The translations under genes were made by a program, and so were the position numbers. The notes below the pieces were generated by a model. It searched no databases, was not told the origin of the DNA, and saw only the letters and a program-made list of their open reading frames with translations. Positions 3,335-26,135 of a DNA stretch of 33,375 nt are shown here, in pieces; position 1 is the first letter of the stretch; each line of letters starts with the position of its first letter. Origin of the DNA: Acidimicrobiia bacterium (GTDB lineage: Bacteria > Actinomycetota > Acidimicrobiia > Acidimicrobiales > CAIXPF01); NCBI GenBank assembly GCA_009377505.1, contig WHTX01000017.1, forward strand, positions 1 to 33,375. Direction: 5' to 3'.

Positions 3335-4768
3335 ATGGCCGTCCGCAGCTACGACCACATCTACGTCGGGGGCGCGTGGGTGCCCTCCTCCGGCAGCGAG
3401 TCGATCGAGGTGATCGACTCCACCAACGAAGAAGTGATGGCCCGGGTGCCCTCGGGGACGGCGGGCGACGTCGACCGTGCCGTCGCCGCCGCCCGGGACG
3501 CCCTCCCCACGTGGTCCTCGACCTCGGCCGAGGACCGGGCCAAGGCCCTCGGCGCCATCGGCGACGGGCTCGCCGCCCGCATGGACGAGGTCGCCGAGGT
3601 CATCAGCCGCGAGGCGGGCATGACCAAGTCGCTCGCCAAGGTCATCCAGGTCGGCCTGCCCGTCAACAGCTTCAAGGCCGCCGCCGAGCAGGCCCGCACG
3701 TTCGCCTTCGAGGAGCGTGTCGGCAACTCGCTCGTCGTGCGCGAGCCGATCGGCGTGGTCGGCGCCATCACGCCCTGGAACTACCCCCTCCACCAGATCG
3801 CCGCCAAGGTGGCCTACTCCATGGCCGCCGGCTGCACCGTGGTGCTCAAGCCCTCCGAGGTCGCCCCCGTCGACGCCTTCATCCTCGCCGAGATCATCGA
3901 CGGGGTGGGCCTACCGGCCGGGGTGTTCAACCTGGTCAGCGGTTACGGCACGACGGTCGGTGAAGCGATCGCCAGCCACCCCGGCATCGACATGGTGTCC
4001 TTCACGGGGTCGACCCGGGCGGGCAAGCGCGTCGCCGCCGTAGCCGCCGAGAACGTGAAGAAGGTGGCGCTGGAGCTGGGCGGCAAGTCGGCCAACGTGC
4101 TCCTCGACGACCTCGACGGCGACGCGTTCGCCAAGGCTGTGGCCGACGGCGTCGGCAAGTGCTTCCTCAACTCGGGCCAGACCTGCTCGGCCCTGACCCG
4201 CATGCTCGTCCCCCGTGACCGACTGGCCGAGGCCGAGGACGTCGCCGTGCGCACCGCCGAGGGCTTCACGGTGGGCGACCCCTTCCAGAAGGCCACCAAG
4301 CTCGGCCCCCTGGCCTCCGCCGCCCAGGTCGACCGGGTGCGGGGCTACATCCAGAAGGGCGTCGACGAAGGCGCCAAGCTCCTCACCGGAGGCACCGAGC
4401 GTCCCGACGGCGTGGAGCGGGGCTACTACGTGCGCCCGACGGTCTTCTCCGAGGTCACCCCGGAGATGACGATCCACCGTGAGGAGATCTTCGGCCCCGT
4501 GCTCGCCATCGAGCCCTACGAGGACGAAGAGGACGCCGTCCGCATCGCCAACGACACCGACTACGGGCTCGCTGGCGGGGTCTGGGCTGCGGACCAGGAC
4601 CGGGCGCTGCGCGTCGCCCGACGCCTGCGCACCGGCCAGGTCGAGGTGAACGGCGGGGCGTTCAACCCCAACGCCCCCTTCGGTGGCTACAAGCAGTCGG
4701 GCCTGGGGCGCGAGTACGGCCACCACGGCTTCGGGGAGTTCCTCGAGGTCAAGGCCCTCCAGCTGTAA
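3335..4768 (+). CDS. Aldehyde dehydrogenase family protein
   Basis: 477 aa; [30 protein letters not shown] and NSGQTCSA motifs. Confidence 0.93.
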
Positions 4769-4811
4769 GCGCGCCCTAGCAGCGCGGGATCGGTTCCGCC
4801 CGCCATGGCCA

Positions 4812-4865
4812 TTGCTCCGGTGATGAAACGCGGTCGACGCGACGGTCGATTCATCACCGGAGCAA
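4812..4865. repeat. 54-bp palindromic element with perfect 16-bp arms
   Basis: TTGCTCCGGTGATGAA (4812-4827), 22-nt centre, TTCATCACCGGAGCAA (4850-4865); same termini as the element at 9404-9687. Confidence 0.85.
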
Positions 4866-4919
4866 CACAGAGGGCAGGCATCGACCGATTGTGTGGCGGG
4901 CTCCTCGCCACTAGTCGCT

Positions 4920-4936
4920 TCTACCGTTCTGGTAGA
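4920..4936. promoter_or_regulatory. Probable toxin-antitoxin autoregulatory operator
   Basis: Inverted repeat TCTACC-GTTCT-GGTAGA immediately upstream of the antitoxin start. Confidence 0.55.
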
Positions 4937-4945
4937 GTGTCAGGC

Positions 4946-5164
4946 ATGGATCTGAACATCAAGGACCTGGACGATGCCGTAGGGCAACGGCTCCGGGAAC
5001 AGGCAGGCGCGGCTGGGCTGTCGGTTCAGCAGTATTTGCGCAACGAGCTGACGCGCATCGCGGCGCGTCGATCGCCGGCGGAGCTCACCGCCGGGCGGGT
5101 GCCGATGAGCAGGACGGAGTTCGAGGCGATCCGTCAGCGCCTCCGCGACATCGACGCCGCGTGA
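4946..5164 (+). CDS. Antitoxin, VapB/FitA-like (ribbon-helix-helix type)
   Basis: 72 aa, MDLNIKDLDDAVGQRLREQAGAAGLSVQQYLRNELTRIAAR..; immediately followed by a PIN-like ORF. Confidence 0.8.
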   Translation: MDLNIKDLDDAVGQRLREQAGAAGLSVQQYLRNELTRIAARRSPAELTAGRVPMSRTEFEAIRQRLRDIDAA

Positions 5165-5167
5165 CCG

Positions 5168-5542
5168 GTGCCGCGTAGCATCGTCTGCGACGCCGGCGGG
5201 CTGCTCGTCGCCGCCGGAGCCCTCGAGGGGGCGGCGCCGCGGGACGCAGAGGTCCTGGCACTGGACTGGACGGCTATGACGGTCGGGCGCTTCCTCACCG
5301 CTCGCCACGAGGGCAACGCGTCCCGTTCCCGTTTCGAGCTGGGCGTCACCCTCGAGGCGGTGCACGAGTGGTTCCCGGTTCGAACCCTCGTCGCCGACAC
5401 GTTGGAGCGCGCCGGGCTCGGGGCGGTCGACGCGCTGGACTCCTGGTCAGCGCTCCTGCTCGCCGAGCAGCTCGATCTCCCGCTCCTCACCGCTTCCGAC
5501 GAGGTCACCAGCACCCGCGTCGAGGTCCACCATCCTTGGTAG
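5168..5542 (+). CDS. PIN-domain-like toxin (VapC-like), GTG start
   Basis: N-terminal SIVCDAGGLLVAA and C-terminal DALDSWSALLLAEQLDLPLLTASDEV resemble PIN motifs; 3-bp gap from the antitoxin stop. Confidence 0.7.
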   Translation: MPRSIVCDAGGLLVAAGALEGAAPRDAEVLALDWTAMTVGRFLTARHEGNASRSRFELGVTLEAVHEWFPVRTLVADTLERAGLGAVDALDSWSALLLAEQLDLPLLTASDEVTSTRVEVHHPW

Positions 5543-9264: not shown

Positions 9265-9300
9265 GTCGGGAGGACCAACTACATCGCCCGAGCCAGCGAG

Positions 9301-9722
9301 TGGTCCTGCCTGGAACTACAGCGGTGCAAGTTGAGTGGTGTCTTTTGCCTCGACGGCCGGCCGCCTCGCACAGGACCCCGGGACCTCGCGCTGTCCCTGG
9401 GCGTTGCTCCGGTGACGAAATGCCTGGCGGGCGCCCGGGCAGGCGGTGCCCCCGGGCCGGGCTCGCCGGGGGCAGGTCCCGCCCGAGCCGCCTACGCCGC
9501 CTCTGGCGGGGGGCGGGGGCGGCCGAGGAGGCGGTGGCCTGTGTTCTCCGCTGCCACCTGCGACGCGGGCTGACACGGGCCAGCCCGGAGCGCGCTGGAC
9601 CGCGGCGTGCGCTGGGACCGGCCCGTCCCAGGCCGCGCCCCCGCCAGGCACGCCGTCCCCGCAGCGGGCGTTTCATCACCGGAACAATGCCCAAGACCGG
9701 GAACCCGAGCACCCGGCCCACT
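9301..9722 (+). repeat. Dispersed repeat copy A, interrupted by the 284-bp TIR element
   Basis: 9301-9408 and about 9688-9722 match, in inverted orientation, a contiguous stretch at 25921-26066. Confidence 0.8.
9404..9687. mobile_element. MITE-like non-autonomous element with 17-bp terminal inverted repeats
   Basis: TTGCTCCGGTGACGAAA (9404-9420) versus TTTCATCACCGGAACAA (9671-9687), two mismatches; no credible internal gene; interrupts repeat copy A. Confidence 0.65.
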
Positions 9723-9834
9723 TCGGCGGGCGCTCCACCGCCACCGCGACACCACATCGACGCTCACGTCAAGGCGCTCGCCCAGGCCGAGTGCCCCCAC
9801 CCAGATCACACCGCCGCAATTCCAGCCGGGACCA

Positions 9835-10101
9835 CTAGTCGAGCTGGCGGGCCCAGGTCCGGTCGCCGTCCTCGAAGACACAGGCCCACGCCGGCGGGAA
9901 CCATCGCCAGCTCACGGACACGAAGCTCATCTTGTCGTCCGGGAACTGCGTCTGGCACTCGACCGGGCGGTCCTCGCGGAGCGGCGGGAGGAATGCCACG
10001 GCTGCGGCGGCGACGTACAGGCCTGCGGGGATCGACAGGAGTCCTACCGTCACGGCGACGGCGCGGCGAGCGCGCCCACCGTCCTCGAGCCTCGCCGTCA
10101 C
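9835..10101 (-). CDS. Small hypothetical membrane protein
   Basis: 88 aa with one clear TM segment (AVAVTVGLLSIPAGLYVAAAAVAFLP). Confidence 0.5.
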   Translation of the reverse strand: MTARLEDGGRARRAVAVTVGLLSIPAGLYVAAAAVAFLPPLREDRPVECQTQFPDDKMSFVSVSWRWFPPAWACVFEDGDRTWARQLD

Positions 10102-25026: not shown

Positions 25027-25920
25027 ATCCACTTCGGTCTCCCCGCCTACCGTTTCGCCGCGTTCCTGGCCCGCACGCTGCCCGCCCCGGCGCGCTCCCT
25101 CATCTGCGAGGTCGGGGGGCGGTTCGTGGCGTGGCGCACCCCCGACCAACGCGACCAGGTGCTGCGCACCCTGCGCCGGGTGTACGGCCCGTGCGTCGAC
25201 GATCGTCGGCTGGCCCGGTCGATGCGCAAGCTCTTCGTCTCCTATGGCCGCTACTGGGCGCTGTCGCTGCGGCTCCCCTCGCTGTCGCCCGAGGAGATCG
25301 AGCGCGGCCACGACGTCGTCGGCTACGAGTACGTGGAGGCGGCGCGGGCCGGGGGGCGCGGGGTGATCCTCGCCCTGCCCCACCTCGGCGGCTGGGAGTG
25401 GTCGGCCTTCTGGCTCACCCGGATCAAGGGGGTGCCGGTCACCGCCGTGGTCGAGGCGCTCGAGCCCCCGGAGCTCTTCGAGTGGTTCACGAACTTCCGC
25501 CGCAGCCTGGGCATGAGCATCGTGCCCGTCGGCCCCGATGCCGCCCGGCAGGTACTGGCGGCGCTGAAGCGCAACGAGGTGGTCTGCCTGCTGGCCGACC
25601 GCGACCTCGGTGGCAGCGGCGTCGAGGTCGAGCTCTTCGGGGAAAAGACCCGTCTGCCCGCCGGCCCTGCGGCGCTGTCGTTGCGGTCACGGGCGCCGTT
25701 GCTGCCCACGGCGGTGTACTTCGCCGACGGGGGCGTGCTCGGCGTCGTGCAGCCCCCGCTCGACACGGCCAGGCGCGCAACCCTGCGCGACGACCTGGCA
25801 CGCGTGACCGCTGAGCTGGCCCGGGCCTTCGAGGACCTCATCCGCACGGCCCCCGAGCAGTGGCACCTGGTCCAACCCAACTGGCCGAGCGACCCCGGTT
25901 ACGGCGGGCTCGACGGCTAG
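25027..25920 (+). CDS. Phosphatidylinositol mannoside acyltransferase-like protein (LpxL/HtrB superfamily); start codon unclear
   Basis: ILALPHLGGWEWSAFW, CLLADRDLGGSGVEVELFGEKTRLPAGPAALSLRSRAPLLPTAVYF; homologous-looking sequence extends upstream of the first GTG at 25126. Confidence 0.8.
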   Translation: MHFGLPAYRFAAFLARTLPAPARSLICEVGGRFVAWRTPDQRDQVLRTLRRVYGPCVDDRRLARSMRKLFVSYGRYWALSLRLPSLSPEEIERGHDVVGYEYVEAARAGGRGVILALPHLGGWEWSAFWLTRIKGVPVTAVVEALEPPELFEWFTNFRRSLGMSIVPVGPDAARQVLAALKRNEVVCLLADRDLGGSGVEVELFGEKTRLPAGPAALSLRSRAPLLPTAVYFADGGVLGVVQPPLDTARRATLRDDLARVTAELARAFEDLIRTAPEQWHLVQPNWPSDPGYGGLDG

Positions 25921-26066
25921 TGGGCCCAGGGGTGGGTGCTCGGGTGCCTGGTCCTGGGCAGCAACGTCCAAGGACAGCGCGAGGTCACGCGTCTGGTGCG
26001 AGGCGGCGGGCCGTCGAGGCAGGGACACCGCTCAACTTGCACCGCTGTAGTTCCGGGCAAGGACCA
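25921..26066 (-). repeat. Dispersed repeat copy B, uninterrupted
   Basis: Reverse complement matches 9301-9408 joined to about 9688-9722; includes an identical 24-mer GGAACTACAGCGGTGCAAGTTGAG. Confidence 0.8.
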
Positions 26067-26135
26067 CCAGGGCCCACGCTCCCCGGCGGAGGCCGGGTAC
26101 CACGTTGGGCCACGAACGGCGTCTAACGTGGGCCG

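Follow-up and report, generated by a model that had tools for sequence, protein, structure and literature searches.

The window, by which we mean the whole stretch of 33,375 nucleotides that was analysed, comes from one contig of a 494-contig, 5.35-Mb Acidimicrobiales draft genome (92% complete, with assembly breaks that fall at repeats). Between a thiamin pyrophosphokinase gene on one side and an isoamylase-type gene on the other lies a repeat element of 542 bp (9297–9838, plus strand), which has no coding-like frame of its own and whose centre is a GC-rich palindromic unit of 284 bp (9404–9687, plus strand). A 54-bp copy of the palindromic unit is found at 4812–4865, with CTAG at 4776 and 4911; of the two genes beside it, one encodes an aldehyde dehydrogenase and the other a FitA-like antitoxin. 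A third, older copy at 25917–26070 (minus strand) is devoid of the hairpin and ends at 25917 in a CTAG that forms the stop codon of an acyltransferase gene (25126–25920).

The central palindrome and its copies

The termini of the central unit, TTGCTCCGGTGACGAAA at 9404–9420 and TTGTTCCGGTGATGAAA as the reverse complement of 9671–9687, are near-perfect inverted repeats exactly as the earlier note had claimed. The repeat does not stop at 9404 and 9687 as that note had it: the inverted repeat runs on for about 8 bp per side (9396–9403 and 9688–9695, CCTGGGCG and TGCCCAAG), and conserved arms reach 9297 and 9838. The left arm of the palindrome, CCTGGGCGTTGCTCCGGTGACGAAA, lies at 9396–9420 (plus strand) and the right arm at 9671–9695 (minus strand). 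DNA folding of the central unit yielded −105.6 kcal/mol (z −3.4). The terminus TTGCTCCGGTGAYGAAA, allowing up to three mismatches, matches four times in the window versus 0.06 expected, and two of these matches make up the further pair at 4812–4865 (fold z −7.4), which the first reading had overlooked.

BLAST searches of the own genome with the 284-bp unit resulted in 53 matches on 40 contigs, with identities from 97% down to about 70%, and the 13-mer core CTCCGGTGAYGAA occurs 68 times genome-wide versus 0 for the reversed control, bearing out the proposal of a multi-copy, non-coding inverted-repeat element of the MITE type. The genome holds about 40–50 element copies, in which the palindromic unit ranges from 54 to 441 bp; 34 of the 40 paired copies have common outer arms and six are armless. 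The window copy belongs to a young subfamily of about ten near-identical copies, which forms a group with support of 100/99 and short branches in a tree of the arms (branch support is low outside this group); the C263 copy is 94% identical to the window element over 540 bp. The family is missing from almost all relatives searched. Neither did the inner repeat match viral contigs nor the outer element phages or plasmids, and in the literature searched no text combines 'miniature inverted-repeat' with 'Acidimicrobi'.

Outer ends of the element at CTAG

Copies at unrelated loci begin to resemble each other at CTAGTGGTCCTGCC; the resemblance ceases at GGGACCACTAG if they are young and at GCAGACCCACTAG if they are old, and therefore the window element was delimited as 9297–9838, including the terminal CTAG, with outer terminal repeats of 21 bp. 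Per-column pairwise identity is mostly 0.5–0.9 inside the element and about 0.3 outside, dropping at CTAG; the flanks of the copies are unrelated and the ends sharp. The left arm (9297–9403, plus strand, about 107 bp) is common to about 40 places, and the right arm, delimited by copy comparison at 9688–9838 (plus strand), varies from about 50 to 150 bp among the 34 arm-bearing copies. The outer left repeat CGAGTGGTCCTGCCTGGAACT (9297–9317, plus strand) has one mismatch to CTAGTGGTCCTGCCTGGAACT, and the outer right repeat CTAGTGGTCCCGGCTGGAATT (9818–9838, minus-strand reading) matches the left-end pattern with three mismatches, so that both lie within three mismatches of the consensus; with the same tolerance CTAGTGGTCCTGCCTGGAACT has 17 sites in the genome versus 0 for the control. 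These terminal repeats are weaker in old copies, in which, because the right end differs (GCAGACCCACTAG), no more than about 13 bp of outer repeat are present. Short tandem CTAGTGG-like motifs were observed at the ends of the copies C27, C11 and C389, as if insertion into one CTAG had been repeated.

CTAG is under-represented in this DNA, with 15 occurrences in the window versus 43 expected. It is located exactly at the end in 7/21 left ends and 6/14 right ends; the left-end CTAG of the window element has decayed to CGAG. The CTAGs at 9835 and 25917 each coincide with a TAG that closes a coding-like frame, and ends at such stops were also found at L179, L182, L185 and L087. To end exactly at rare CTAG sites, often the stop codons of genes, is unusual for such an element. 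Several copies have CTAG on both sides, which might be part of the repeat, and no duplication of greater length was seen; the CTAG at both ends could thus either belong to the terminal repeat or be a target duplication (TA or CTAG). The CTAG stop codons suggest a safe-harbour insertion strategy, which is testable in related isolates.

A second CTAG-bounded repeat family was noticed at L186, L220, L223, L225, L227, L230, L235 and others. Its copies are about 130–165 bp long (CTAGATCTGCTCGGTCCC ... GGGGGCGCAGCCCCCGAGCTAG) and contain several hairpins with no obvious terminal inverted repeats; some begin at TAG stop codons, and some adjoin the first family with one CTAG in common (C215, C36 and C216). 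We raise only tentatively the idea that CTAG, often a TAG stop, serves as a common landing site for unrelated families, namely the element described here, the second hairpin family and an IS4-type IS flanked by GGGCTAGCCC, which would be moved by at least one CTAG-specific enzyme and be harmless since the stop codon is rebuilt.

Armless and uninterrupted copies

The palindromic unit also exists without arms outside this genome. Among the matching contigs of the named collection were those of Acidimicrobiales bacterium SJ307, the remaining exact matches being scattered singles in unrelated organisms. This MAG, a relative of the same family, carries about 14 loci with the palindrome, all without arms; their flanks look coding in places (IEFLR-stop), with no consistent gene found. 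In three SJ307 units (L147, L151 and L155) the left repeat stands in tandem, two to four times, with a spacing of 37–43 bp. No target duplication was detected around the inner units in either the own genome or SJ307. In the window, the armless hairpin is situated just upstream of the FitA-like (VapB-type) antitoxin gene, which a small ORF follows (4812–5542 in all); gene and ORF are a possible toxin-antitoxin pair.

The earlier note had further stated that the flanks of the 284 bp are contiguous in the reverse complement of 25921–26066; the match is real, with about 87% identity, and had been taken to represent a filled versus an empty site. We count five uninterrupted copies (25.9 kb, C484, C40, C369 and C120), no two of which have the same junction: GGACGTTGC^TGCCC, GGACGTTG^GGCCC, GGAC^CGGGG and two others. 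On the arm tree they are scattered among old filled copies, and their five rows need five label changes, which is not fewer than with shuffled labels; the old filled copies (70–80% identity) keep a full-length interior. The 25.9-kb junction (GTTGC^TGCCC at 25959/25960) retains the TTGC of the left terminus, as expected of a deletion, and fits a removal that starts at TTGC|TCCGG and takes in the palindrome's right arm to its last base.

Because the junctions differ, the tree scatters the uninterrupted copies and old copies hold full interiors, independent deletions of an unstable palindrome explain the uninterrupted copies better than a pre-insertion state, and the 25.9-kb copy is most likely an older copy that lost its hairpin. 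We consider it unlikely that a small TIR transposon was inserted once into the outer repeat, leaving 25.9 kb as the pre-insertion state: the two arms are directly joined there, the palindrome stands armless in both genomes, and the tree is compatible with one ancient insertion after which the composite was amplified, but the uninterrupted copies neither share a junction nor cluster, the TTGC remnant persists at 25.9 kb and the inner units are without target duplication. Thus the inner unit does occur separately from the outer repeat, as had been supposed, whereas its insertion into an empty site of the 25.9-kb type was not supported, and the filled/empty-site reading is corrected to one of the whole element.

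We think it probable that a non-autonomous 542-bp MITE integrating at CTAG has the 284 bp as its hairpin core, and that the 25.9-kb copy arose by deletion. Such a MITE would be bounded by inverted repeats of about 21 bp (CTAGTGGTCC... / ...GGACCACTAG) and would integrate at CTAG, a tetranucleotide that is rare here and often holds a TAG stop codon. A transposase acting in trans would move the whole 542-bp unit, duplicating TA or CTAG, and CTAG would be rebuilt at both ends so that the gene stays intact. The central palindrome, which is also found by itself, would be a hairpin repeat of older date, and its shortening or loss by deletion would have generated the 25.9-kb copy.

Gene context, known systems and candidate transposases

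Neighbour orientation was read by codon composition, without a gene caller, and by this rough measure the genes flanking the copies are convergent in 11, tandem in 15 and divergent in 2 cases with both neighbours readable, an orientation usual for tolerated intergenic repeats. The convergent excess and the strong folds (z −3.4 and −7.4) would also agree with a structured RNA or a terminator of transcription that selection maintains at the ends of genes, instead of a mobile element, as would one variable arm position that matches its partner in 28/39 cases versus 19.3/39 shuffled, although this is one of 18 positions, with relatedness ignored. We regard this explanation as highly improbable, given the highly variable copy length, the recent burst of near-identical copies and the absence from almost all relatives; Rfam and tRNA scans of the window produced no match.

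Like bacterial MITEs, which are non-autonomous IS derivatives, the family is short and non-coding, with terminal inverted repeats, many dispersed sharp-ended copies and subfamily bursts; unlike them, it has a large hypervariable central palindrome, and a parental transposase was not found among the families covered. IS630, IS5-group and IS701 elements target TA in CTAG or YTAR. The family resembles them in ending at CTAG, but DDE_3 (IS630), DDE_5 (IS701) and DDE_Tnp_4 transposases are absent from the genome, and an IS630-derived MITE was rejected for want of DDE_3. REPINs are REP doublets forming hairpins (PMC3116915), and the family is similar to REPINs and BIMEs (PMC3116915, PMC3733652) in that inverted doublets around a spacer form a hairpin, found for the most part 3′ of genes and where two genes converge. 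It differs from them in its spacer of about 20 to 400 bp, its usual embedding in a larger TIR element, the lack of a RAYT gene and arms that are not individually palindromic beyond chance; the GTAG or CGTC tag of REP repeats is absent from the conserved ends.

It is quite doubtful that a single-strand mechanism spread the central unit as a REPIN-like hairpin repeat, with the outer arms as hitch-hiking flanks. The inverted doublets, variable spacer, intergenic 3′ location, missing target duplication and extra tandem left repeats in SJ307 would suit it, but Y1/RAYT (PF01797) was detected in 0/9 genomes (the own genome and eight relatives including SJ307) while five control genomes were positive, single arms fold no better than shuffles (z −0.14, −1.18 and +0.52), and the outer arms are common to the copies and sharply ended. 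The best reading is a REPIN-like hairpin core within a non-autonomous MITE. The family is new but its kind is familiar, and with it a poorly studied order gains a lineage-restricted MITE family.

An enzyme acting in trans most likely mobilises the family. The unlinked transposase, or full-length IS with the same termini, that the earlier note had proposed was not recovered from the assembly among the families covered (DDE_3, DDE_5, DDE_Tnp_4, DDE_Tnp_1 and Y1). The outer-end pattern occurs in the genome only in pieces of this family, and no long autonomous copy was seen on contigs with an unpaired inner repeat. Two DDE_Tnp_1 genes were found and rejected as mobilisers: the IS1634-family gene on C117 is cut by the contig end, and its plasmid homologues end in CCGGGGTTCCGCAGCT, the nearby CTAGTGTCCTGGCAGG lying outside it; the IS4-family IS on C56 has intact ends CAATACCGTTCAGTTAGG, unlike those of the family. 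The latter IS (L214:4018–5463) is itself intact, encoding a 402-aa transposase and bearing an apparent GGGCTAGCCC target duplication, and it adjoins a 126-bp CTAG-bounded piece (3879–4004) with the same kind of ends.
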